This document shows positions 5,261 through 24,943 of a DNA stretch of 35,683 bases, in pieces; positions within the stretch are counted from its first letter, which is position 1, and each line of letters starts with the position of its first letter. The position numbers and the translations under genes were made by a program. The DNA lies in the NCBI GenBank assembly GCA_900290295.1, contig OMSW01000253.1, forward strand, positions 8,290-43,972. The letters run 5' to 3'. Source of the stretch: Burkholderiales bacterium. GTDB taxonomy: Bacteria; Pseudomonadota; Gammaproteobacteria; Burkholderiales; Burkholderiaceae_F. Under the pieces are notes generated by a model. That model made no database searches and had not been told where the DNA came from. It was given only the letters and a program-made list of their open reading frames with translations.

Positions 5261-5782
5261 CTAGCGCAGCGCGCGCAGTATCCCGCGCAGCATCTCCAGC
5301 GGTGGCGGTGGACAGCCCGGTATCTCCACATCGACGGGCAGCACGTTGGCGATGCGGCCGCGGCTGGCATAGCTCTCGCCGAAGACTCCACCATTGCAGG
5401 CGCATTCGCCGACGGCAACTACGCGCTTGGGTGCCGGCATGGCCTCGTAGGTGCGCAGCAATGCCGCTTCCATGTGCGCCGAAACGGGGCCGGTCACCAG
5501 CAGCAGGTCGGCATGTCGTGGGCTGGCCACAAACTTGATGCCGAGTCCCTCGATGTTGTAGTAGGGGTTGTTCAGGGCCTGCATCTCCAGCTCGCAGCCA
5601 TTGCACGAGCCGGCGTCGACCGCGCGTATTGCCAGGGCGTGCCCGAGCACCGACAGGATGTCCTGGGCTATTGCGCGCAGCTCGGCCTGCGCTTCCGGCA
5701 CTGCCCCGGGGGAAGTCGCATCGGGCGCCGGTTCGGTGATCGTGCCGACGCGCGCGATTTGTCGAAGTTCGCGCCAGGGCAT
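5261..5782 (-). CDS. Hydrogenase-4/complex I NuoB-like small subunit (HyfI-like)
   Basis: Peripheral iron-sulfur subunit of a complex I/group 4 hydrogenase-type membrane complex, 173 residues. The proximal [4Fe-4S] cluster ligands are present: CxxC in GSCNGCE (Cys60, Cys63), GEC at Cys127, and GCPPPP at Cys157; an extra Cys129 follows. In the family this subunit docks against the NuoD/HyfG-like large subunit at the quinone- or [NiFe]-site interface. It is the last gene of the six-gene minus-strand operon and its ATG overlaps the stop of the large-subunit gene as TGATG. The first 40 or so residues are an unusual Pro/Ala/Glu-rich leader with no signal peptide. The cluster is intact here although the large subunit has no [NiFe] ligands. 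The specific electron donor is unknown. Confidence 0.88.
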   Translation of the reverse strand: MPWRELRQIARVGTITEPAPDATSPGAVPEAQAELRAIAQDILSVLGHALAIRAVDAGSCNGCELEMQALNNPYYNIEGLGIKFVASPRHADLLLVTGPVSAHMEAALLRTYEAMPAPKRVVAVGECACNGGVFGESYASRGRIANVLPVDVEIPGCPPPPLEMLRGILRALR

Positions 5783-7401
5783 CAGAGATCCTGCCCGGAA
5801 TAGCTCAGGTTGAAGGACTTGTTGATCAGCGGGAAGTCCGGGACGATGTTGCCGATGACGGCATGCTCCAGCGCGGGCCAGTTCTGCCAGGACGGATCGT
5901 GGCAGTGCGCGCGCAGGATCTGGCCGCGCTCGTCGAGCTCGATCGCGACCAGCAATTCACCGCGCCAGGCCTCGACCCAGCCGGCGCCCCAGCCGTGCGC
6001 CTGCGGCGCAGCGAGCGCGGTGATGGTCGGTCCGGCCGCAAGCTCGCGTGTGATGATCCGGATCAGGCGCAGCGATTCGTAGATTTCGGCAAAGCGCACG
6101 GCAACGCGGGCCGCAACATCGCCGGCCGTGGCATGCGCACCGCGAACCTGCAGCGCTTCATACGGTACGCCGCCGAAATCCACGCGCAGGTCCGCGCCCG
6201 TTCCGCTGGCGCGGGCCGCCATGCCCGTGAGGTTGAGTTTGCGCGCCAGTTCCGCCGCGATGCAGCCCGTGCCGACGAAGCGATCTTGCAGTCCGGCATG
6301 CGCATCGTATATGGACTCGATGATGCGGACCTGCCCTTCGACGGCCTCGCAGTCGGCATGGATGGTCGCCAAGGCCGCCGTCGACAGGTCGCTCGCCACT
6401 CCGCCCGCAACGATCCAGTCCATGAGCAGTCGATGCCCCAGCAGTTCGTGATTGCGGCGCAGCCAGTCCTCGCGCAGGCGCGAGAACTGGGCCAATCCGA
6501 AGGCAAAGGCAGCGTCGTTGCCCAATGCCCCGAGATCGCCCAGGTGATTTGCGATGCGCTCGCGCTCCAGCGCCAGCGCGCGCAGCCACTGCGCGCGCGC
6601 CGGCGCCTCGGCGCGACACAGCGCCTCGGCCGCTGCACAGTAGGCCCAGCTGTAGGCGACCGTGCTGTCGCCGGAGACGCGCGCGGCCAGGCGCGCGCCC
6701 TGGGCCAAGCTCATGCCCTCGAAGCGCTTCTCGATGCCCTTGTGCGTGTAGCCCAGGCGCTCTTCGAGGCGCAGCACCTTTTCTCCCACCACGGAGAACC
6801 GGAAGTGTCCCGGCTCGATAATCCCCGCGTGCACCGGACCGACCGCGATCTCGTGCACCCCGTCGCCCTCGACTGTGACAAAGGCGTATTGCTCATCGAG
6901 CGCGTCGTAGCGTTCCCGCCCACTGGGCTCGCGGCGCAAGGGGTAGTAGTCCCTAGGCCAAGCCGCGTGGCGCAGCCAGGGCCGGGTATCGCCTGCCCCC
7001 TCGGCCACCAGGCCGCTGAGGTCGGCGACGGCACGCTGCATGCGAACCGCGGAGGGAAACGTGGCGCTCAGGTCCGGGTAGTTCGGAAGGGCCGCTGCCG
7101 CCTCCGCTAGCGGCAGATCCAGCCATACCAGGCCCGAGTTCAGGGCATAGGCGGCCGCGACCGCAAAATGCCCCTCGCTCGTGCGCCGGTCGGTCCCCCA
7201 GATCGAGATCAGGCGACCGCCGAGGCTGCGAACCACGCTGGGCGCAGCGCGCCACTGGGACCGGGTGACTCGCGCCCTATGGATTGGCATCGGGCCGCGC
7301 AGGCGCGCGAGCGTGCAATCCAATCCCGGCAGCCGCAGCTCCCGTGGCGTCTTGCGCCGCTCCGTGACCCTTGCCTCCTCGTGTGGCGCATCGGGCCCCA
7401 T
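5782..7401 (-). CDS. HyfG/NuoCD-like large subunit lacking [NiFe] cysteines (Ehr type)
   Basis: Fused NuoC-like (about residues 40-160) plus NuoD/hydrogenase-large-subunit-like (about 175-539) protein, 539 residues. Similarity to HycE/HyfG is clear in EPGHFRFSVVGEKVLRLEER, GYTHKGIEKRFEG (218-229) and ALERERIANHLGDLGAL. The L1 motif, RxCGxC in real [NiFe] hydrogenases, reads RVSGDS here (241-246), and the C-terminus ends in PLINKSFNLSYSGQDL with no DPCxxC motif. No Ni or Fe ligation is therefore possible as in hydrogenases, and no C-terminal maturation peptide is expected. This matches the Ehr (energy-converting hydrogenase-related) class. I start it at ATG 7401, giving TGA-GC-ATG spacing to the HyfF-like gene; the open frame further upstream overlaps that gene and is rejected. 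Catalysis is unknown. Confidence 0.87.
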   Translation of the reverse strand: MGPDAPHEEARVTERRKTPRELRLPGLDCTLARLRGPMPIHRARVTRSQWRAAPSVVRSLGGRLISIWGTDRRTSEGHFAVAAAYALNSGLVWLDLPLAEAAAALPNYPDLSATFPSAVRMQRAVADLSGLVAEGAGDTRPWLRHAAWPRDYYPLRREPSGRERYDALDEQYAFVTVEGDGVHEIAVGPVHAGIIEPGHFRFSVVGEKVLRLEERLGYTHKGIEKRFEGMSLAQGARLAARVSGDSTVAYSWAYCAAAEALCRAEAPARAQWLRALALERERIANHLGDLGALGNDAAFAFGLAQFSRLREDWLRRNHELLGHRLLMDWIVAGGVASDLSTAALATIHADCEAVEGQVRIIESIYDAHAGLQDRFVGTGCIAAELARKLNLTGMAARASGTGADLRVDFGGVPYEALQVRGAHATAGDVAARVAVRFAEIYESLRLIRIITRELAAGPTITALAAPQAHGWGAGWVEAWRGELLVAIELDERGQILRAHCHDPSWQNWPALEHAVIGNIVPDFPLINKSFNLSYSGQDL

Positions 7402-7403
7402 GC

Positions 7404-8867
7404 TCAGCCTCCGATGAGAGCGGCCGCCTGGCGGTACCACTGGCCCAGAAACGGCGGAACGAACAGCCCGAGCATCAGGGTCAATCCCAGGTGCACGAAC
7501 ACCGGCAACAGGGCCGGCCGATGGCCCAGGGCCGGCAGGTTCGTATCGCCGAACACCATGGCCTGCACTCGGCCGAACACAGAGGCAAAGGCGACCGCCA
7601 GGGCCAGGAGCAATACCGGCGTGGCCCAGGGAAGCTGGCGCATTGCGCTCGTAAGGATCAGGAATTCGCTGGCGAACACGCCGAAGGGCGGCATGCCCAA
7701 AATGGCCAGCGAGCCGATCGCAAGTCCCCACCCCAGCGTAGGACTCGCCTGCAGCAAGCCGCGAATATCGTCCATGATCTGCGAGCCGGCACGCTGCGTG
7801 GCGTGCCCCACCGCAAAGAAAATTGCCGACTTGGTCAGCGAATGCACCGTCATGTGCAGCAGTCCGGCAAAGTTGGCAATCGGCCCGCCGAGTCCGAAGG
7901 CAAACGTCATCAGTCCCATGTGTTCGATCGACGAGTAGGCGAACATGCGCTTGACGTCGCGCTGGCGGCGCAGAAAAAATGCTGCCACCACCACCGAGAC
8001 GATGCCGAAGGCAACCATTGCATGGCCCGGCAAGCCGTTGGTCATGGCACCATCGGCTAGCACCTTGCAGCGCAAAATGGCGTACAGCGCCACGTTCAGG
8101 AGCAGGCCCGAGAGCACCGCCGAGATCGGCGTCGGCCCCTCCGCGTGGGCATCGGGGAGCCAGTTGTGCACCGGCACCAGGCCCACCTTGGTGCCGTACC
8201 CCAGCAGCAGGAAGACGAACGCGAGCGCCAGAATATTTGGTTCGAGCTCCGTCTTAACCGCCGCCAGGTGTGTCCAGAGCAGCGCACCCTCGCCACCGCC
8301 GATGACCCGGTCCGCGGCCAGGTAGAGCAGCATGGTGCCGAACAGTGCCTGGGCGATACCGACGCCGCACAAGATGAAGTATTTCCAGGCGGCCTCTAGG
8401 CTGGCCGGCGTCCGGTAGACCGAAACGAGCAGCACGGTGGTCAGGGTTGCCGCCTCCATCGCCACCCAGAGCACGCCCAGGTTGTTGGTGGTGAGCGCCA
8501 TCAGCATCATCGCAATGAACAGCTGGTACATGCTGTGGAACAGGCGCATGCGCGGCGCCGTCATCTTGCCGCGTTCGCGTTCGATGCGCATGTAGGGCCG
8601 CGAAAAGACCGATGTGGTGAAGCCGACCAGGGCGGTTAAGGCGACGAGGAAGGCGTTGAGCGGATCGATGAAAAAGCGCTCGCCAAAGCCGAGCATCGGC
8701 GTGCCGAGGATCACGTCGGCGGTGAGCCAAAGTGCCGCCGCGAAGGTGGCAGCGCTGAAGGCGACATTGATTTCCGGGCCCCGATCCCGGTGGCCGTAGA
8801 GCGCGAGCGCCAGGCCGCCGCCGATCGGCACCAGCAGGGTAAGAAACAAGGGCAGGGTCGCAGGCAT
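7404..8867 (-). CDS. HyfF-like antiporter-type membrane subunit
   Basis: Mrp/NuoL-M-N-type proton-translocating subunit of 487 residues with about 14 predicted hydrophobic segments. Conserved charged residues of the family are visible: Glu138 in VLWVAMEAATLTT (TM5), Lys227 in GTKVGLVPVHNWLPDAH (TM7) with His241 just after, and the YSSIEHMGLM segment further on. Asn258 occupies the position where many antiporter subunits carry a Lys or His; I believe this is also seen in HyfF. The ATG follows the stop of the HyfE-like gene as TGA-GC-ATG, and the next gene follows in the same arrangement. It probably forms one of two ion-translocating arms of the membrane complex. The open frame extending upstream to 9605 is antisense-like noise within the preceding genes. 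Confidence 0.9.
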   Translation of the reverse strand: MPATLPLFLTLLVPIGGGLALALYGHRDRGPEINVAFSAATFAAALWLTADVILGTPMLGFGERFFIDPLNAFLVALTALVGFTTSVFSRPYMRIERERGKMTAPRMRLFHSMYQLFIAMMLMALTTNNLGVLWVAMEAATLTTVLLVSVYRTPASLEAAWKYFILCGVGIAQALFGTMLLYLAADRVIGGGEGALLWTHLAAVKTELEPNILALAFVFLLLGYGTKVGLVPVHNWLPDAHAEGPTPISAVLSGLLLNVALYAILRCKVLADGAMTNGLPGHAMVAFGIVSVVVAAFFLRRQRDVKRMFAYSSIEHMGLMTFAFGLGGPIANFAGLLHMTVHSLTKSAIFFAVGHATQRAGSQIMDDIRGLLQASPTLGWGLAIGSLAILGMPPFGVFASEFLILTSAMRQLPWATPVLLLALAVAFASVFGRVQAMVFGDTNLPALGHRPALLPVFVHLGLTLMLGLFVPPFLGQWYRQAAALIGG

Positions 8868-8869
8868 GC

Positions 8870-9529
8870 TCACTCTTCGCGCAGCCGCTCCAGGTGCCGG
8901 ATGTCGAGACTGTCGAACTGCTCGCGGATCTGGAACATGAACACGCCCAGTATCAGCACGCCGACCAGCACGTCCAGTGCTATGCCCAGCTCGACGATCA
9001 TCGGCATGCCGTTGGTGGCCGAGGTGGCGGCGAAGAACAGCCCGTTCTCCATAGCCAGGAAGCCGATCACCTGGGGGATGGCCTTGGCGCGCACGATCAT
9101 CATCATGAAGGACAGCAATACGCAGGCCAGCGCGATGCCGAGCGTGGAGCGCGCGATCGACGACGACAACTGGGCGATCGGAAGCGCGAGGTTGAAGGCG
9201 AACACCACCAGGACGATGCCGATGAGCATCGTCGTCGGGATATTGATCAGCGGCTCGACGTCCCAGCGCACATCGAGCCGGTCGATGACCCGGTGCAGCA
9301 GTATCGGGATCAGTACGACCTTCAGTACAAACGTGATCGCAGCCGAGGCGAACAGGTGCGGCTGGTTGGTCAGGTAGGCCACGGTCACGGTCGCCAGGAC
9401 CAGTGTCACACCCTGGGTCGTGTACAGGTGCACGAGGCTTAAGATCCGGCGCTGCGAGATCATCGCGAACGAGACGATGAGCAGGAAGGCGGCGTACAGA
9501 TTGATGCTTTGACCGAGCAGGGCGCGCAT
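8870..9529 (-). CDS. HyfE-like membrane subunit (NuoK-like C-terminal half)
   Basis: Very hydrophobic protein of 219 residues with about seven predicted transmembrane helices, close to the usual HyfE length. The C-terminal half contains a NuoK-like pair of helices with buried acids: VIGFLAMENGLFF and MPMIVELGIALDVLVG. In complex I and group 4 hydrogenases this type of subunit links the antiporter arms to the NuoH-like anchor and carries the proton wire. The start is ATG 9529, which overlaps the TGA of the upstream NuoH-like gene as TGATG; a longer open frame to 9796 overlaps that gene and is rejected. It ends with a charged cytosolic tail (IRHLERLREE). The family assignment is good; function depends on the unresolved role of the whole complex. 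Confidence 0.87.
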   Translation of the reverse strand: MRALLGQSINLYAAFLLIVSFAMISQRRILSLVHLYTTQGVTLVLATVTVAYLTNQPHLFASAAITFVLKVVLIPILLHRVIDRLDVRWDVEPLINIPTTMLIGIVLVVFAFNLALPIAQLSSSIARSTLGIALACVLLSFMMMIVRAKAIPQVIGFLAMENGLFFAATSATNGMPMIVELGIALDVLVGVLILGVFMFQIREQFDSLDIRHLERLREE

Positions 9530-10485
9530 CACGCTTCCAGGAGCTGGTGCACCAGCAGACCGATGACCGCCAGCAAAAAGGCGGTGGCGAGAAACTCGGG
9601 GACACGGAAAATGCGCATCTTTGCGCTGGCGGTCTCGATCAGCGCCAGGCTGACCCCGCCGATGGCGAGCTTGAACACCAGCATCGGCACGGCGACCAGC
9701 ATCACCAGGGGGGAGTCGATTTCCGCAATGCCCCAGGGAAAGAAGAGCGCCAGGCCGATGCAGGAATAGGCAAAAAGCTTCAAGGACGCGGCCCACTCCA
9801 TCATCGCCAGGTGCCGGCCGGAATATTCCAGGATGAGGGCCTCGTGGATCATCGTCAGTTCCAGGTGGGTTGCCGGGTTATCCACGGGCACGCGCGCATT
9901 CTCCGCCAGGGAAACGATGGTGAAGGCGATGCCGGCAAATGCCAGGCTGGGCTCCAGGACGTACGGGCGGTGGACTACGGTCTCGACCATGTTGGCGAGC
10001 GAGGTCGAGTGAGTGATGAGCGAGGTGCAAAACAAGCTCATGAGCAAGGCCGGTTCGGCCAGGAACCCGATCAGCATCTCGCGCCGCGCGCCCATGGTTC
10101 CAAACGCGGTGCCGATGTCCATCGCTGCGAGGGCGAGAAAGGTGCGTGCCAGCGCAAACAGCCCCACCAATGCGATCGCGTCGGCGGCGGTGGCCAGCGG
10201 CAGGTCGGTGGAGATGGTGGGCACGATCGCGCAGGCCAGCGTCATGCAGCCGAACATGACGTAGGGCGCCAGCCGGAACAGCGGCGAGGCCGAATCGGCA
10301 ACGACCGATTCCTTGTGAAAGAGCTTGCGCAGCACCCGGTAGGGCTGCGTCAGGGGAGGGGCTGCGCGGTTTTGCAGGCGCGCACGCCACTGGTCGACCC
10401 AGCCCAGCAGCAGCGGTGCGGCCGCCAGGGCGAGGACGACTTCGAGCAACTGCGCCAGGATGCCGGTTCCGCTAATTCCGTTCAC
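9529..10485 (-). CDS. HyfC/HycD/NuoH-like membrane anchor subunit
   Basis: Integral membrane subunit of 318 residues with about eight predicted helices, homologous to NuoH, which anchors the peripheral arm and lines the quinone-binding chamber in complex I. The family-defining segment AENARVPVDNPATHLELTMIH and the following EALILEYSGRH give the conserved acidic loop. Near the N-terminus, YRVLRKLFHKE is the amphipathic region seen in HycD-like proteins. The start codon is GTG (10483-10485), overlapping the stop of the HyfB-like gene as GTGA. Its own stop overlaps the HyfE-like start. A NuoH-type anchor without HyfH/NuoI is unusual and is discussed as a finding. Confidence 0.9.
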   Translation of the reverse strand: MNGISGTGILAQLLEVVLALAAAPLLLGWVDQWRARLQNRAAPPLTQPYRVLRKLFHKESVVADSASPLFRLAPYVMFGCMTLACAIVPTISTDLPLATAADAIALVGLFALARTFLALAAMDIGTAFGTMGARREMLIGFLAEPALLMSLFCTSLITHSTSLANMVETVVHRPYVLEPSLAFAGIAFTIVSLAENARVPVDNPATHLELTMIHEALILEYSGRHLAMMEWAASLKLFAYSCIGLALFFPWGIAEIDSPLVMLVAVPMLVFKLAIGGVSLALIETASAKMRIFRVPEFLATAFLLAVIGLLVHQLLEA

Positions 10486-12482
10486 AGTCGCACCAGCATG
10501 AGCATGACAATCAGGGTGACAAAGCTGTACAGCAAGTAGATCGAGATGCGTCCTTGCTGCAGCAGCCCCACGCCGCGTGCGGCCAGGTCGACCAAGCGCC
10601 CGATCGGCAGGTAGACCCCGTGCCAGATCCGGTCCTCGATCAGGACCCGGTAGTGCGGGCGAGCGTCAAACGGCGAGGGCAGATCGCGCTCAAGGCGAAA
10701 GAACGGCTCGAAGATCTGCCGTATCGGTTGGCCGAAGCCCTCGGCGGTATCTTGCATGCGCGCGGTCCCGCCCGCGTAGCCGCAGGCCCACGGCGGCGCG
10801 CGGCGAAGCGTGCCCCGGTAGAGCCGACGCGCGATCAACAGGCCCAAAAACGTTCCGGCGGCGACCCCGCCCAGAAATGCGACCGGACTGTAGCTGGCGC
10901 GCTCTACGCCCGTGGGCGCCAGCAGTAGCCAGCCGTTGGCGTGCACGGTCTGTGCGAGTCCACTGCCTACCAGGCGCTGCGTGACGCGGTCGACCAGGTC
11001 GATCACGGGCACCGGGAACAGTCCCAGCGCCAGTGAGCCGACGGCAAACCAGGCCAGGCCGATGCGTTCGAACCCAGTGGCGTCGTGCGCACGCAGCAGT
11101 TTTTCCTCGCGCGGCTGCCCGAGAAAGACGACCCCGAAGAACTTCACCATCGCATACCCGGCCAGGGCCACGACCAGCGCGACGGCCGCGGCCACGAGCG
11201 GGATCAGCATGTCGAGAAACGAATTGGGCAGGACGGTGGTGAACAGGAAGCTTTGCAGCAGCAGCCACTCGGATACGAATCCGGCCATGGGTGGCAGCCC
11301 CGAGCCCGCCAGCACACCGACCAGCACCAACCAAGCCACCCAGGGCATCGACCGGATCAGCCCGCCAAGCTTGCCCAGGTTGCGCTCTCCCGTGGCGTGC
11401 AGTACTGCGCCGGTGCCCAGGAAGAGCAGGCTCTTGAAGAAGGCGTGCGCCAGCACGTGCACCAGTGCAGCGCTCAGCGCCAAGGCCGCCAGGGTCGACA
11501 TGCCGTACGCGCGAAAGATCAGCGCCAGTCCCAAGCCGGTGACGATGAGGCCGATGTTTTCGATTGAGGAATACGCCAGCAGGCGCTTCATCTCGGTTTG
11601 CACGGTGCTAAAGACGACCCCGAGCAATGCGCTGGCCAGTCCCAGGCCCAACAGCACTTCGCCCCACCACCACTGGCCGCCGTGCAGCAGGTCAAAGGCG
11701 ACGCGCAGCAGTCCGTAGATCGCCGTCTTGAGCATGACGGCGCTCATCAGCGCGGAGACCGGCGAGGGGGCCGCGGGGTGCGCCTCCGGCAGCCAGACGT
11801 GCAGCGGCACCAGGCCGGCCTTGGCGCCGAAACCAAAGACGGCAAAGCCGAATGCGATCGAGGACCAGAGCGGACCCAGCTGTTGGGCGCGCAGGTTGGC
11901 AAACGTGTAGTCGCCGGTATTGGCCTGCAGCACGCCGAAGCAAAGGAGAATCGCTATGGCACCGACGTGCGCTACCAGCAAGTACAGGTAGGCCGCCTTG
12001 CGCACCGCGGCAACGCGATGGTTCGCGGTGACCAGGAAAAAGGAGGCCAGCGCCATCGTCTCCCACATGACCATGAAGGCGTAGCCATCGTCGGCCAGCG
12101 CAACCATCGCCATTGCAGCCAGGAAGACGTGGTATTCCAGGCACAGCAGGCCGGGCGGGGTGCCTTCGCCCGTGCGAAAGTAGCCGGCCGAGAACATCGA
12201 CGTGCCGAAGGCTCCTGCACCGATCACCACGAGGAAAAACGCCGAGAGCGGATCCAGGCGCAGGTGAAACGGCAGTCCGGGCAAACCGATGACGAGCTCG
12301 GCAACTTCGGGCGTGGAAAAGGTCGCGTCCAGCGCTACGCCGGCCAGCGCCAGTCCCAGCAGGGCACCGAGCGGGAACAGACGCCGCGCAATGAACTGCA
12401 TGTGCTTGAGCACGAACAGCGCCCAGATTCCCAGCGTCAGCCAGCCGGCGACGATGATCAAGATCCAGTCGATATGGATCAT
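10482..12482 (-). CDS. HyfB-like antiporter-type membrane subunit
   Basis: First gene of the hydrogenase-like operon; 666 residues and about 15-16 hydrophobic segments, homologous to HyfB/HycC and to NuoL. Key residues are present: Glu141 in MVMWETMALASFF (TM5), Lys221 in KAGLVPLHVWLPEAH (TM7) with His235, and Lys252 in VMLKTAIYGLLR (TM8). The C-terminal region contains a long loop (HyfB-like RRAPPWACGYAGGTARMQ, then ERDLPSPFDARPHYR) before the last helix, as in HyfB. It starts at ATG 12482, 153 bp downstream of trmB; a run of eight T residues on the coding strand (12516-12523) lies in that gap but no good hairpin precedes it. It probably provides the larger ion-translocating arm. Confidence 0.9.
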   Translation of the reverse strand: MIHIDWILIIVAGWLTLGIWALFVLKHMQFIARRLFPLGALLGLALAGVALDATFSTPEVAELVIGLPGLPFHLRLDPLSAFFLVVIGAGAFGTSMFSAGYFRTGEGTPPGLLCLEYHVFLAAMAMVALADDGYAFMVMWETMALASFFLVTANHRVAAVRKAAYLYLLVAHVGAIAILLCFGVLQANTGDYTFANLRAQQLGPLWSSIAFGFAVFGFGAKAGLVPLHVWLPEAHPAAPSPVSALMSAVMLKTAIYGLLRVAFDLLHGGQWWWGEVLLGLGLASALLGVVFSTVQTEMKRLLAYSSIENIGLIVTGLGLALIFRAYGMSTLAALALSAALVHVLAHAFFKSLLFLGTGAVLHATGERNLGKLGGLIRSMPWVAWLVLVGVLAGSGLPPMAGFVSEWLLLQSFLFTTVLPNSFLDMLIPLVAAAVALVVALAGYAMVKFFGVVFLGQPREEKLLRAHDATGFERIGLAWFAVGSLALGLFPVPVIDLVDRVTQRLVGSGLAQTVHANGWLLLAPTGVERASYSPVAFLGGVAAGTFLGLLIARRLYRGTLRRAPPWACGYAGGTARMQDTAEGFGQPIRQIFEPFFRLERDLPSPFDARPHYRVLIEDRIWHGVYLPIGRLVDLAARGVGLLQQGRISIYLLYSFVTLIVMLMLVRL

Positions 12483-20715: not shown

Positions 20716-21168
20716 TTACTTGTAAACGCCGCCGCAAAGCACGTTCTTATCGATACGCTCGCAGTAACTCTGCTTGGGTTCGATCTTCTTGGTCAGCGGA
20801 TCCGTCATCTTGTATTCCTGCCAGAACGTGTTCTGCTTCTGGGCCATTTCAACCCGCTCCTTGACCCAGGACTTGCCGTCGACGTCCTTGAGGTCGATCA
20901 GATTCTTGCCGACCATCTTTTCGTTGTTCCCATGTGCCAGGACGGTTCCATCGAGACCGTAGACCACCAGGTACAGGTCGCGGTCGTGAAACTGCCCGCC
21001 CTTGGCGGTTATCGCGGCAAAGGTCTTTTCGTCCCCGTTTTCCTTCCAGTAGGCGACGGCCTTGTTGACCATCGCGACGGCTTCGTCCCGGCTCGCGTGT
21101 TCCGCGGCAATAGCAACGTGGGCAAGGGCGGATGCGATAACGGCAAGAGCTAAGCGTCGAAGAGCCAT
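20716..21168 (-). CDS. Secreted single Cache-domain protein
   Basis: Periplasmic protein of 150 residues. An N-terminal signal peptide (about 1-21, hydrophobic core ending AHVAIAA) precedes a small-molecule-binding Cache_2-like domain: VNKAVAYWKENG, FHDRDLYLVVYGLDGTVLAHG, MVGKNLIDLKDVDGK and the closing YCERIDKNVLCGGVYK. Cache domains are usually the sensor part of chemoreceptors or kinases; here the domain is free, with no membrane anchor after cleavage. Two cysteines near the C-terminus (in SYCER and LCGG) could form a disulfide. The Shine-Dalgarno GAGG lies 5 nt before the ATG. It precedes the chemoreceptor gene by 79 bp, so it could present a ligand to that receptor, which is inference. 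Confidence 0.88.
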   Translation of the reverse strand: MALRRLALAVIASALAHVAIAAEHASRDEAVAMVNKAVAYWKENGDEKTFAAITAKGGQFHDRDLYLVVYGLDGTVLAHGNNEKMVGKNLIDLKDVDGKSWVKERVEMAQKQNTFWQEYKMTDPLTKKIEPKQSYCERIDKNVLCGGVYK

Positions 21169-21333
21169 GGTGACCTCGTCGGTTTGGGAGGGAACTGCGC
21201 GATTGGGCGTGCCTTGCGCGCGGGGACATTCTTGCCCGCGTTATAAAAGAGAAGCCACCTTAGCGTGCGGTTTCCCGGCCGATCGCGGGAAAAAGCTTGG
21301 GAAATCGGACTCGGAGCGCGGAAGGGCGATGAA

Positions 21334-21391
21334 CGCGCCCTTGCAGGGCGCGACAAATGCCGCAGGGCCTTGGCTCGCGCAGCCAAGGGCC
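21334..21391 (-). terminator. Two tandem hairpins after the dienelactone hydrolase gene
   Basis: Reading the minus strand just past the stop at 21395, the first hairpin has arms 21368-21375 and 21381-21388 (8-bp perfect stem CCTTGGCT/AGCCAAGG, 5-nt loop, extendable with one bulge). The second has arms 21334-21340 and 21346-21352 (CGCGCCC/GGGCGCG, 5-nt loop). Neither has a clean T-tract. Their placement directly behind the gene supports a terminator or mRNA-end function. Confidence 0.55.
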
Positions 21392-21394
21392 GTG

Positions 21395-22261
21395 TCAGCC
21401 CACCCCATTGGCCTTCAACCATGCCACGCAGCGTTTCCACCCGTCCTGCGCCGCTTGCTCGCGGTAGTTGGGCCGGTAGTCGGCGTGGAAGGCGTGGGGC
21501 GCGTCGGGGTAAACGATGAACTGGGACTGGGCTCCCGCCCCAGTGTTGGCGGTCAGCGCCAGCTTCATGCGCTCGATGGACTCGACCGGGATGGCGCTGT
21601 CGGCCCCTCCGTAGAGTCCGAGTACCGGCACGCGCACCCGAGCGGCAAGGTCGAGCGGATTCGATGGCGTCAGCGTGGTGGTATCGCCCACCAGCCGTCC
21701 GTACCAGGCTACTGCCGCCTTCAGATTCGGGCTGTGCGCGGCGTACAGCCAGGTGATGCGTCCGCCCCAGCAATATCCGGTTACGCCCAGCTTGCCGCCA
21801 TCGCCGCCGTTTTTTGCCGCCCAGGAAGCGCTCGCGTCCAGATCGCTCATGACCTGGGCATCGGGCACCTTGGAAACAATCTGGGAGACGAGCGTAGGGA
21901 TGTCGCTGATCTTGCTCGCGTCGCCCTGGCGCGCATACAGCTCCGGCGCCACTGCAAAATAGCCGAGCTTGGCAAAGCGCCGGCAGACGTCCTTGATGTG
22001 CTCGTGCACACCGAAAATCTCCTGCACGACAAGAATGATCGGCGCCTTGCGCAGGCCTGCCGGAAAAGCACGGTAGGCGGGCATCGTCCCGTCGCCGACG
22101 GGAATTTCGACTTCTCCAGCAACCAGCCCGTCGCTGTCCGTGGTGATGGCCGTCTGCGCCTGCACGGGCAAGACGGCGGCGGCAAATCCCGTTCCCAGCG
22201 TTGTGCGGGCAAGTTCGCGCTGCCGCGGGCCACGGGTCCCCTGACCTTGTTCTACATGCAT
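21395..22261 (-). CDS. Dienelactone hydrolase family protein, probably exported
   Basis: Alpha/beta-hydrolase of 288 residues from ATG 22261, chosen because GGGAG lies 7 nt upstream; an open frame extends 15 codons further. The catalytic triad is visible: nucleophile Cys164 in VTGYCWGGR, Asp221 in YGGADSAIP and His256 in DAPHAFH. Residues [26 protein letters not shown] fit the DLH fold. The N-terminal leader ([27 protein letters not shown]) resembles the Tat leaders of secreted DLH relatives, but the twin arginine is interrupted (RQR), so export is uncertain. Known DLHs open dienelactone in chloroaromatic degradation; no other such genes are here, so the substrate is open. It lies 108 bp downstream of the kinase gene on the same strand. 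Confidence 0.9.
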
Positions 22262-22296
22262 CGCGCGGCTCCCGGAAGACAAGCCTGATGGAGATT

Positions 22297-22333
22297 GCGC
22301 GCGCAAGCGTAAACCTATTGTGCTTGCCCGCGC
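22297..22333 (-). terminator. Inverted repeat between the kinase gene and the hydrolase gene
   Basis: GCAAGC (22303-22308) pairs with GCTTGC (22322-22327) over a 13-nt loop, and flanking G-C runs extend the stem imperfectly. It sits in the 108-bp gap after the kinase stop and before the hydrolase Shine-Dalgarno. No T-run follows on the minus strand, so it may be a weak terminator or a leader structure. Confidence 0.35.
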
Positions 22334-22369
22334 GAAACCCCCTAGGAGCCCAAACGCATGGCCTCCCGG

Positions 22370-24943
22370 TCAGGCAAGCTGCCGCATGGCCAGTACCGCC
22401 TGGTTGCGCAGCGTCTTGAGCAGACTCAGCTCCTCGGCGCTGAAGTGCAGGATTGCCGGCGAATCGCTGTCGGCGTAGATCAGTCCCAGGGTGCGTTTGC
22501 GATTGACGATCGGCAGCAGGACCATGCCGCGCGCCCCGATCGCGCTCCGGTACCATTCCGGGACGTGCTGGCGCACTTTCCCGGCCTCCAGGTCATCGAT
22601 ACACAGGTCGACCCCCATTACGACCGCCGCGTAGAACAGGTCACGGGCCCCGTCCAGCGGTGCCGCGACGCCGTTTTGCACGATCGTTTCGGCATCGGCG
22701 CCGAAGCCGAAGCGACAGCGCAGCGCCTGCTGCCGCGCATCCCGAACGAACAGCAACACCCGCTGAAATCCGATCGCGCGGTACATGGTTTCCAGGATGA
22801 TGCGCAACACGTCGTTGAGGCTGTGATCGCCTACCAGCGTGTTGGTGATGTCCTGAACCCCTGCGGCCAGTGCCGCCTGGCGCCGCCCCGGTTCTGCGTG
22901 CCCGCTAGCCGGGATCCTCCTCGCGTCCGCGCTCCCGAGCCGGGCGTCGGCCACCAACTCCTGGGTCTGCGCGACCAGTTCTACCGCAGCCGGTCCAGCA
23001 CAGGGCGCCGCAGCTGCCTCGGCCGGCGCTGCTTGCCCAGCCGAGGGCGGCGCCGACGGCTCGCTGGCGCCGATGCTTGCGGTTCCGCCCGAAACAGGGC
23101 CCAGATGGCCCGCATGCGCCGACCTGTTGCGCTGCGGGTCGGCGACCGGCGCTCGCTCCGATGGCAGCTGCCAGCTGCGCGCGCTGCGGAAAAAGTCGTT
23201 GCGCGAGACACCATGACCCAGAGTATCGGCGTCGCGCATCAGCGCATTGGCCGACGATTGCACGGCCGCGATCAGCGAGCGCTCGCTGATGCCGGTCGCA
23301 GCGCCGTAGCGAGCAACCAGAGCGGCGAGTTGCTCCTGGCGTTTTTCTTCGTCTGCGCTTGCAATGACGTCGGCCAGTTCATTGGCCAGGCCGGCAAGCA
23401 TGCGCAATTTCTCGCCTTGTTGACCCGGACATTTTTTCACCGTACCGGTGATGACCCGCATGCTGTCGGTGATTTCCTCGGGAAAATTCCACGCCTTGCC
23501 AACGCCGATCCCGAGCTCCTCGTAGCTGATTCCGAGGACCTCGCGCGAGGCGCGCTGCTCGTCCCAGCCGCGGCTGCGCAGGTGGCGTTCGATGATCTGC
23601 GCCTCGTCATGCAGATAAAACGTTGCCAGCAGCTTTCCCAGCCGGTGAAACATTGCGCAAATGAACGCCTGTTCGCCGTCGCGCAGGTCGGCGCGGCCAT
23701 GGAGTTCGCGCGCCAGCAGGCCGCTGAAGTAGATCGATACAACCTGGTCCTTGAGCGCGGCGGCGTTGGCACGGTCGTGCATGTGTTCGAAGAGAACGAG
23801 CGACATCGAGACATTGCGCACCGCGTCGTAGCCTAGTATCGAGATGGCACGCGACACGGTGCTGATCGAGCCGCCGAACTGGCCGAGATGGGAAGCGTTG
23901 ACAATCTTTAGCAGCCGGTTGGTGAGCGCGAAATCCTTCAGGATGGAATTGCACAGAACGCCGACGGGCTCGCGGTCGGAGGAGGCGGCACGATTAACCG
24001 CGCTGATGGTTGCCGACAGTGCCGGAAAATCGCCCTTGTGTCGGATTCGCCGCAACAGGTATTCGAGTGTTCCCTGGGTGGCCCCCGCAGCCTCCGGCGC
24101 ATCCGGGTGCAAATAGGCAGCCAGGGCGGCGGCCATGTCGGCCGCGCTGCCAAAGCGCTGCGCCGGGGATTTTGCCAACGCTTTCATCAGCAGGCCATCA
24201 AGGCGCTCGTCGACGTTGGCGGTATGTCGCGAGGGCGGCAAGAAGTCTTCCTCGACGATGCGCCGGACGGTTTCGCGAGGATCGCTGCCAACGACCGGAG
24301 GCGCGCCGGTGAGCATTTCGTATAGGACCACCCCTAGGGAAAATACGTCGCTCGCCGGCAAGCAGATGCGCTCGGTGATGTATTCGGGCGCCATGTAGGA
24401 CGGGGTGCCGACGATCGTCGGGCCGTCCGTGTCCGGAGCAGCAATGCGGCGGGCAATCCCGAAGTCCATCAGCCGGGCCATTCCCTCGCGCGTAATCATC
24501 ACGTTGGCGGGTTTGAGATCGCGATGCACGATGTTGCGTTCGTGTGCGTAGGCCACGCCCTGCGCCAGTGCGATGGCAATTTCCACGGCGCGATCGACCT
24601 CGAGTTTTCCTCGCTCGGCGATCAAGCCCGCCAGCGTCTGGCCCTCGACATATTCGAATACCAGGTAAGGCGCACCATTCTCCTCGCCGGCGTCGTACAA
24701 GGTTACGATATTCGGGTGGGAAAGCGTGCTCACGATGCGCGCTTCGTCCAGCAGCGTGGCGACCCCGGCCTCGCCTAGGCCTGGACCGTTGGCGACCGCC
24801 ATCGTCTTGAGTGCCACCGCGCGTCCCAGGCGGGTGTCCGTCGCCAGATAGACGGTGCCCTCGGCGCCCTTGCCCAGGGTGCGCGAAATGGCAAACCGGC
24901 CGATTTGCGGACTGGTCTTTCGGGCGGCAGACGGCAGGAACAT
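22370..24943 (-). CDS. Ser/Thr protein kinase fused to HDOD and GAF domains
   Basis: One continuous 857-residue frame. Residues about 15-280 form a eukaryotic-like kinase: glycine loop GKGAEGTV (24-31), ATP lysine in ALKTM (Lys46), catalytic HRDLKPANVM (140-149), DFG (160-162), GTPSYMAPE (179-187). Residues about 295-500 form an HDOD domain (LCNSILKDFALTNRLLKIVNAS, AISILGYDAVRNVSMSLVLFEHM, MFHRLGKLLATFYL). After a proline/alanine-rich linker (about 590-685) comes a GAF domain (about 690-850). All kinase catalytic residues are kept, so activity is expected. No membrane helix is seen. HDOD proteins are HD-like but non-catalytic and often mediate regulation. The gene begins 33 bp after the GGDEF-EAL gene, so the two are likely co-transcribed. 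Inputs and targets are unknown. Confidence 0.93.
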   Translation of the reverse strand: MFLPSAARKTSPQIGRFAISRTLGKGAEGTVYLATDTRLGRAVALKTMAVANGPGLGEAGVATLLDEARIVSTLSHPNIVTLYDAGEENGAPYLVFEYVEGQTLAGLIAERGKLEVDRAVEIAIALAQGVAYAHERNIVHRDLKPANVMITREGMARLMDFGIARRIAAPDTDGPTIVGTPSYMAPEYITERICLPASDVFSLGVVLYEMLTGAPPVVGSDPRETVRRIVEEDFLPPSRHTANVDERLDGLLMKALAKSPAQRFGSAADMAAALAAYLHPDAPEAAGATQGTLEYLLRRIRHKGDFPALSATISAVNRAASSDREPVGVLCNSILKDFALTNRLLKIVNASHLGQFGGSISTVSRAISILGYDAVRNVSMSLVLFEHMHDRANAAALKDQVVSIYFSGLLARELHGRADLRDGEQAFICAMFHRLGKLLATFYLHDEAQIIERHLRSRGWDEQRASREVLGISYEELGIGVGKAWNFPEEITDSMRVITGTVKKCPGQQGEKLRMLAGLANELADVIASADEEKRQEQLAALVARYGAATGISERSLIAAVQSSANALMRDADTLGHGVSRNDFFRSARSWQLPSERAPVADPQRNRSAHAGHLGPVSGGTASIGASEPSAPPSAGQAAPAEAAAAPCAGPAAVELVAQTQELVADARLGSADARRIPASGHAEPGRRQAALAAGVQDITNTLVGDHSLNDVLRIILETMYRAIGFQRVLLFVRDARQQALRCRFGFGADAETIVQNGVAAPLDGARDLFYAAVVMGVDLCIDDLEAGKVRQHVPEWYRSAIGARGMVLLPIVNRKRTLGLIYADSDSPAILHFSAEELSLLKTLRNQAVLAMRQLA

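Follow-up and report, generated by a model that had tools for sequence, protein, structure and literature searches.

A hydrogenase-4-like operon with a putatively remodelled [NiFe] pocket in a Burkholderiales bacterium

What is a hydrogenase-4-like complex for once its large subunit has no [NiFe] site? This question is raised by a 35,683-nucleotide stretch of a Burkholderiales bacterium (assembly GCA_900290295.1, contig OMSW01000253.1, forward-strand positions 8,290 to 43,972; the whole stretch is referred to as the window), in which six minus-strand genes at positions 5261-12482 are transcribed in the order HyfB-C-E-F-G-I. Judged from the sequence, a six-subunit Ehr (energy-converting-hydrogenase-related) complex is the best explanation, as the operon appears to fit the published description of this group. 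The class is already known, and the window operon is a new member of it. Ehr was reportedly defined in a paper by Marreiros in 2013. Passages of PMC6349859, PMC10284858, PMC6728331 and PMC7304191 call the function of Ehr unknown or unproven, and a passage of PMC5037454 states that the HydDB classifier was trained to exclude Ehr as not metabolising H2.

Large subunit and class of the operon

Like other Ehr complexes, the operon combines group-4-like large and small subunits with Mrp-type membrane subunits and has no Ni/Fe ligands. The genes are tightly packed, with a 4 bp overlap between B and C, 1 bp overlaps at C/E and G/I, and 2 bp gaps at E/F and F/G; the open reading frame (ORF) coordinates agree with the order, overlaps and gaps given in the original prediction. 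Many genomes carry this gene set, so that chance can be excluded as the origin of the arrangement. Four of the products (HyfC, HyfE, HyfG and HyfI) score below the NCBIfam cut-offs of their best models, and all except HyfE pass Pfam cut-offs.

The HyfG-like large subunit (5782-7401, minus strand, 539 aa) joins a NuoC-like domain at the N-terminus to a NuoD/HycE-like domain. Its Pfam matches are Complex1_49kDa and Complex1_30kDa, not NiFeSe_Hases, and its best PDB match is HycE of E. coli (7z0s_E, E 2e-59). RVSGDS (residues 241-246, positions 6664-6681, minus strand) replaces the RxCGxC motif (L1) and aligns with RVCGIC of HycE, and NLSYSG (residues 531-536, positions 5794-5811, minus strand) stands in place of DPCxxC (L2), aligned with DPCYSC of HycE. 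The L1 position given in the original prediction is exact, and the C-terminal DPCxxC that it reported as lacking is indeed missing. The HycE ligands Cys241, Cys244, Cys531 and Cys534 align to HyfG Ser243, Ser246, Ser533 and Gly536. The AlphaFold model of HyfG (pLDDT 90.9, pTM 0.92) has HycE as its nearest fold (TM 0.88), followed by E. coli NuoCD (at best 0.84).

The replacement extends over a family of 140 large subunits, the window included, in which counts refer to sequences and not to independent lineages; near-duplicates such as L005/L034, L138/L162 and L162/L235 are present here, in the residue sets of the other subunits and among the loci of the ferredoxin search. Left out were L124/L167 (RSCGDS, one Cys, long branch), the fragment L023, and L171, which comes from the genome of L105. 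The first-ligand column holds Ser in 124, Ala in 15 and Cys in one sequence; the second Ser in 103, Thr in 25, Ala and Met in four each, plus others; the third Ser in 119, Asn in 16, Ala in four and one gap; the fourth Gly in 139 and one gap. Conserved cysteines elsewhere in the large subunit were looked for as a finding that would speak against the loss of the site. The window protein has cysteines at positions 29, 255, 262, 351, 380 and 500, and no HyfG cysteine reaches at least 97% conservation in the family, so that no conserved substitute set of ligands is seen.

Group 4 [NiFe] large subunits have a C-terminal tail that is removed by a maturation protease. In the group 4 sequences compared (n=12), 35-39 residues follow the fourth Cys; the HyfG chain stops 3 residues beyond this position in all 138 family members measured. 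With the ligands replaced and the tail missing, normal [NiFe] maturation of HyfG appears very unlikely.

The distribution of the maturation protein HypD points in the same direction. Carriers of the operon, defined by a match of E 4.4e-69 or better, make up 58 of 299 genomes in a phylum-wide sample; of the 38 with a completeness of 95% or more, 20 are without HypD, as are 36 of the 58 overall. Among close relatives, six of 20 carriers (identity 50% or more) are without it, and so are eight of 14 in the contig collection, whose completeness is not stated. HypD is weakly commoner in carriers (22/58) than in non-carriers (59/241; Fisher p 0.048, relatedness uncorrected), an enrichment that we do not read as functional. 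The window genome does encode HypD, which is explained by an ORF on another of its contigs (C255) with the motifs RLCGIC and DPCLSC, which mark it as a normal [NiFe] large subunit. The earlier statement that hydrogen chemistry of the usual type is not possible is thus well supported by ligand loss, missing tail and HypD-less carriers.

In a tree with the L1 and L2 columns masked, 33 Cys-less sequences and five sequences with four cysteines at the ligand positions form one branch (100/100), which adjoins nine [NiFe] group 4 sequences (87/65), with eight NuoD-type rows apart (100/100). HyfG lies outside the sampled [NiFe] hydrogenases, including group 4a, and on the hydrogenase side of NuoD; the sampling was made without Ech, Mbh, CooH, Eha/Ehb, HydDB 4f/4g and the named Ehr references from Geobacter and Mycobacterium. 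A placement inside the [NiFe] hydrogenases, looked for as evidence against the Ehr assignment, was not found among the sampled rows, and the predicted position between complex I and group 4 matches the published descriptions.

Of the named relatives in the contig collection, a metagenome-assembled genome of Burkholderiales from peat soil is closest (HyfG 82% identity), and a large subunit on NC_007974.2 of Cupriavidus metallidurans CH34, presumably the Rmet gene, is 59% identical to the window protein. The genes hyfBCEFGI were described in 2010 in CH34 (Rmet_4666-4671) and in C. necator H16 (H16_A2196-A2201), where a passage of the paper says that they resemble an incomplete operon and that a lithotrophic role is very unlikely (PMC2864759). 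The six genes and their order are as in the window, and no difference was found. E. coli Hyf (hydrogenase-4) shares B, C, E, F, G and I with the window operon, which has no A, D, H or J; compared with Hyf and Hyc, it is without RxCGxC, DPCxxC, the C-terminal extension and the HyfA/HyfH polyferredoxins, and the canopy Asp is changed to Asn531. Complex I is resembled in the membrane residues, the NuoC/D/B fold and the canopy residue Asn285, which is as in NuoD. In contrast to complex I, the operon is without NuoI and NuoE/F/G, HyfI has a CxxC instead of adjacent cysteines, and HyfG has Glu196 for His and Gly244 for Tyr.

Pocket, electron entry and membrane arm

Two features were missed by the original prediction: the pocket has taken on a new form that is itself conserved, and a ferredoxin-type electron-entry subunit is absent. 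In the pocket, Glu196 (6814-6816, minus strand) is the counterpart of the proton donor in the beta1-beta2 loop, Glu193 in HycE and Glu21 in Mbh, at the place of His38 in Nqo4, an equivalence drawn in passages of PMC9474812 and PMC11228991. It is present in all 140 family sequences, as are Asp245, His286, Lys528 and Phe530; Arg480, Asn531 and Gly536 are almost fixed. Residues of the proton path are likewise retained (His286 in 140, Arg397 in 138 and Glu439 in 136 sequences). Other positions are consistently altered. HycE Asp192, the acid beside the proton donor in other membrane hydrogenases, is Ile195 in 140/140, and the canopy Asp, HycE Asp529, which appears strictly conserved according to a passage of PMC9474812, is Asn531 in 138/140. 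Columns with at least 97% conservation make up 26 of 39 pocket positions versus 50 of 321 in the rest of the NuoD-like domain (Mann-Whitney p 8e-11; relatedness is uncorrected and the pocket positions were picked after conservation had been seen). The sequences show that the former [NiFe] pocket is strongly constrained in a new form comprising Glu196, Asp245, Asn285/His286, Arg480, Lys528, Asn531 and Gly536; it is remodelled, not decayed, and differs from the complex I pocket.

The HyfI-like small subunit (5261-5782, minus strand, 173 aa; 112.1 bits, under the NCBIfam cut-off of 116) has its best PDB matches in MbhJ (6cfw_J) and HycG (7z0s_G). All four predicted ligands for a single proximal [4Fe-4S] cluster are in place, as had been noted before: Cys60, Cys63, Cys127 and Cys157 are each found in 136 or 137 of 137 sequences. 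The cluster motif is the hydrogenase-type CxxC and not the adjacent Cys pair of complex I N2.

In formate hydrogenlyase and complex I, electrons reach the proximal cluster via a ferredoxin-type subunit, HycF or NuoI. No CxxCxxCxxxC motif was detected in the window or in 8.3 kb of the adjoining contig. Among 118 related loci with 3 kb margins, the motif occurs somewhere in 12, but inside the operon only in L209 and L242, twice each and within the small-subunit ORF; in L043, L091 and L100 it lies in other iron-sulfur-like ORFs, and the remaining cases look by eye like chance. A tblastn search of the window and of 128 loci with HyfA, HyfH, NuoI, HycB and HycF gave no match in the window and none within an operon; in five loci (L050, L091, L100, L105 and L106) weak matches lie outside it. 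Five loci known to carry a HyfH-like subunit served as positive control and were all detected; as the ferredoxin stretches of L209 and L242 were missed, divergent ones can escape, and a [2Fe-2S] protein is invisible to both searches. On the basis of the motif, a ferredoxin-type electron-entry subunit appears to be absent from the window and from 116 of the 118 related loci. The genomes of L209 and L242 (tree rows L172 and L173) form the first branch within Ehr in the masked-column tree, with weak support (75/35), which is compatible with the loss of an ancestral electron-entry module.

The membrane arm is formed by four products. The HyfB-like antiporter-type subunit of the NuoL family (10482-12482, minus strand, 666 aa) matches NCBIfam PRK06521 'hydrogenase 4 subunit B' with 874 bits (cut-off 667), and the HyfF-like antiporter-type subunit (7404-8867, minus strand, 487 aa) matches PRK06458 'hydrogenase 4 subunit F' with 859 bits (cut-off 543). 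The HyfC-like subunit of the NuoH family (9529-10485, minus strand, 318 aa) begins with GTG and matches Pfam NADHdh, and the HyfE-like subunit (8870-9529, minus strand, 219 aa) reaches 96.5 bits with PRK11492, under the cut-off of 136, and has no Pfam match. The claim that all antiporter-type Glu and Lys residues are kept held for HyfB Glu141, Lys221 and Glu405 (103/103; Lys252 in 93/103) and for HyfF Glu138 (162/162), Lys227 and Glu401 (both 161/162). It did not hold at HyfF Asn258, which occupies the position of NuoM Lys265 and is likewise Asn in E. coli HyfF, or at two places in HyfC: Ala205 and His207 (9865-9867, minus strand) each replace a Glu present in NuoH, HycD and E. coli HyfC. His207 is invariant (109/109), together with Glu144, Asp202, Glu209 and Glu220 of the same subunit. 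Since these membrane residues are conserved and the membrane subunits constrained, ion pumping by the HyfC-E-F-B arm is plausible.

Possible functions of the complex

We favour, with about even confidence, a redox-driven ion pump that would act on an undefined substrate in the HyfG pocket and take electrons from a soluble donor to HyfI. A soluble low-potential donor would dock directly on HyfI, on the face otherwise taken by HycF or NuoI, and electrons would pass through the HyfI cluster to the remodelled pocket, where a small substrate would receive them and Glu196 would supply the proton. Loop movements may then drive H+ or Na+ through the membrane arm, a mechanism that has been put forward for complex I and Mbh; the reverse direction, with an ion gradient pushing electrons uphill, would also be possible. 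As the substrate, quinone is a tentative first bet, but the pocket is not that of complex I. The pump is favoured by the conservation of the pocket, the proton path, the cluster ligands and the antiporter-type residues, by purifying selection on all six genes, by the lack of a ferredoxin-type subunit and by the closeness of the fold to HycE and NuoCD.

Several observations weigh against a redox-driven pump of this kind. The canopy Asp common to hydrogenases and complex I is Asn531 in HyfG, and Gly244 stands at the position of a complex I Tyr that we take to be a quinone-site residue. The Cys-less Ehr class of L206 has a HyfH-like subunit, so its lack in the six-gene form is not general to Ehr. 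In Geobacter, Ehr is raised on formate and the authors, in the passage concerned, link it to formate and H2, not to quinone (PMC7894505). No donor, acceptor or partner gene was found by clustering flanking ORFs of at least 100 aa; beyond the six genes and antisense frames, the most frequent neighbour is present in 15 of 80 loci. Nor is there co-occurrence with aerobic CO dehydrogenase, which is over the cut-off in 2/58 carriers and 10/241 non-carriers.

The rates of evolution point both ways. In favour of the pump, all six genes are under purifying selection, with ratios of non-synonymous to synonymous substitution (dN/dS) of 0.05-0.18 between the window and L034. Against it, the six values are topped by those of HyfG and HyfI in each of four genome pairs, which are non-independent: HyfG is highest in three pairs and HyfI in the window-L034 pair, and the window-L037 pair is a near tie (HyfI 0.160 vs HyfB 0.159). 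In complex I, compared in one pair (G004-G003; 124 codons covered in NuoB, 175 in NuoH, 380 in NuoCD), the order is reversed, the redox subunits NuoB (0.04) and NuoD (0.11) lying below most membrane subunits (NuoH 0.15, NuoL 0.19, NuoM and NuoJ 0.20; NuoK, at 0.06, is the exception). For the same genomes, the NuoD-like part of HyfG has 0.21 against 0.11 for NuoD, and HyfI 0.22 against 0.04 for NuoB; the Ehr membrane subunits are about equally constrained as those of complex I, and HyfG and HyfI are 2 to 5 times less constrained. The faster redox subunits could mean a weaker redox role. Within HyfG, the NuoC-like part evolves faster than the NuoD-like part in 4/4 pairs (dN/dS 0.18-0.47), as would be expected if its usual contact, the ferredoxin subunit, were gone or replaced by changing partners.

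These rates, together with the missing electron-entry subunit and the fast NuoC-like domain, also favour the strongest alternative, a redox-gated or redox-independent ion transporter in which the membrane arm would work in H+/Na+ exchange and the [4Fe-4S]/pocket head would serve as sensor or structural cap. We consider this clearly less probable than the redox-driven pump, as a pocket with a proton-donor Glu and nearly invariant polar residues is conserved beyond what a mere cap would need.

Somewhat less probable again is a module linked to formate or another dehydrogenase, in which a soluble molybdenum enzyme encoded elsewhere would dock on the complex. Its standing rests on papers about other Ehr complexes: an FDH-Ehr complex is suggested for Riflemargulisbacteria and Saganbacteria in a passage of PMC6349859, and the formate response in Geobacter was reported as a raised abundance of Ehr. 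The complex lacks the Fe-S subunit through which such an enzyme would touch it, and none of the ten neighbour clusters run against Pfam, out of 40 listed, is a molybdenum dehydrogenase. Nine of the ten, namely methionyl-tRNA synthetase, a spermidine synthase-like protein, DUF1275, ScpA, an ABC ATPase, a GGDEF-EAL protein, pyruvate kinase and two unmatched clusters, were judged incidental, and so was a FAD_binding_2 flavoprotein on the opposite strand in nine loci. Two clusters that were seen on the opposite strand in 38 and 9 loci, overlapping the ends of the operon, were judged by position and strand to be antisense frames of HyfI and HyfB.

That the operon is a degenerate, non-functional hydrogenase-4 remnant is highly improbable; A, D, H and J are missing and the Cupriavidus paper likened the genes to an incomplete operon, but purifying selection acts on all six, their order is kept in distant lineages (e.g. 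L162-L170 and L209), and the new pocket residues are nearly invariant. Least probable of all is a complex still active on H2 with an unusual metal site, which the closeness of the HycE fold and the four cysteines of the related lineage might suggest, as the four ligands are replaced, the tail is lacking throughout and more than half of the nearly complete carriers are without HypD.

Related lineages, surroundings and meaning

The lineage with four cysteines lies within Ehr (100/100 for the joint branch). In a quick tree of all columns it is sister to all Cys-less Ehr (SH-aLRT 92); in the masked tree it lies inside the Cys-less sequences (88/79), and 0/200 bootstrap trees split off the Cys-less rows as one side. 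The cysteines may have been lost twice, or lost once and later regained. The L1 motif is RAC[GA]AC, also RMCAAC, RSCGAC, RACAGC, RVCAGC or RSCSGC, and L2 is ELCY[AS]C. Within one class, 32 of 249 genomes have a match of E 1e-60 or better. Among the 30 loci read (four-Cys loci are L201-L205 and L256-L285), the four cysteines are complete in 28; L278 has lost one and in L271 the second pair is unreadable. The large subunits have the short C-terminus of the Cys-less family, and no ferredoxin or protease gene was seen in the operons of the five loci read with flanks (L201-L205). No HypD match was obtained in 20 of the 32 genomes, the completeness of most of which is not stated, so that some absences may be gaps; of the 12 positive genomes, one has a fragment under the cut-off. 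Among those without a match is G447, a genome of some 3.4 Mb in which a contig of 3.37 Mb holds the operon. If this is right, the four cysteines at the [NiFe] positions would have a role other than binding the usual cofactor. A thin literature search, in which the query for groups 4f/4g came back empty, turned up no paper about the lineage.

The gene order B-C-E-F-G-I is shared by the window family (L162, L164-L170), L209 and four of the four-Cys loci (L201-L203, L205); the operon of L163 is cut off, and for L204 no separate HyfE match is listed. Permuted Ehr orders occur as I-B-C-E-F-G (L208, L210, L213, L214) and as C-E-F-G-I-B (L117-L119, L206, L207, L211, L212). The window's six-gene form, without ferredoxin subunit, differs in this respect from the Cys-less class of L206, in which the HyfH-like gene accompanies the permuted order. 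Further Cys-less Ehr classes, with L1 motifs RVSGTD, RFAATT and RIEGVA, were seen in L117, L118, L119, L182, L184-L186, L195 and L196, L117 and L118 being from genomes of the window's own genus. Very divergent large-subunit-like proteins in L157 and L160 (RINAVD / RINALD) have an adjacent small subunit and hardly any recognisable membrane genes; they were placed in the quick tree only, on a branch of 3.9 changes per column. L163 comes from a 0.9 Mb genome rated 100% complete (G237), which has an Ehr operon on a contig ending inside hyfC and no HypD match.

The window lies on contig C259 of a 3.06 Mb assembly that is 88% complete. On the upstream side of the operon and on the same strand are a Methyltransf_4 gene, which we take to be of the trmB type, and a BacA gene; a GGDEF protein is encoded downstream on the other strand. 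Farther away, a multidomain protein with protein kinase, HDOD and GAF domains (22370-24943) has GGDEF/EAL and chemotaxis-receptor genes nearby and overlaps by 187 bp with a 468 aa ORF without Pfam match (21150-22556), the start of which is ambiguous. Regulatory sites upstream of hyfB gave no usable candidate: an FNR-type box, found in 13 of 64 sequences against 4.1 in simple shuffles and 6.7 in a Markov control, with four hits on the start codon, was rejected, and sigma-54 sites were fewer than expected. An XRE-type helix-turn-helix gene directly precedes hyfB in L286, L287, L289, L215-L217, L220-L222 and L235-L237, several of them alphaproteobacterial, and not in the window; three of these genomes (L220, L235 and L236) have a second, similar gene beyond the end of the operon, in opposite orientation.

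The MBS/Mbx sulfane sulfur reductase of Pyrococcus likewise uses a group-4-related pocket for a different purpose. Its Mbx large subunit is a weaker match to HyfG (6u8y_L, E 4.7e-15); MBS is named in a passage of PMC9474812. Besides complex I with quinone and MBS with sulfur, the Ehr complex might be a further case in which the ancient [NiFe] pocket was rebuilt to take a different proton-coupled substrate, and the most stripped-down redox pump of the superfamily, with six subunits and one [4Fe-4S] cluster that a soluble carrier feeds directly; the HypD-less four-Cys relatives would then bind, at these four positions, a metal other than [NiFe(CN)2CO]. We regard this wider view as possible and hold it more tentatively than the redox-driven pump.

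Ehr complexes are widespread among soil bacteria, bacteria that live with plants and others from the environment. They go under annotations as hydrogenases or parts of NADH dehydrogenase (examples on plasmids are 'nickel-dependent hydrogenase large subunit' and 'NADH-quinone oxidoreductase subunit C'), which may mislead models of H2 metabolism. With no ferredoxin subunit at all, the six-gene form offers a compact natural system for probing the minimum redox machinery of a complex I-type pump. In a tractable host such as C. necator H16, reported to have the operon in its genome (PMC2864759), the fixed pocket residues, the missing tail and the four-Cys relatives turn a reaction so far called unknown into specific mutants and metal analyses.

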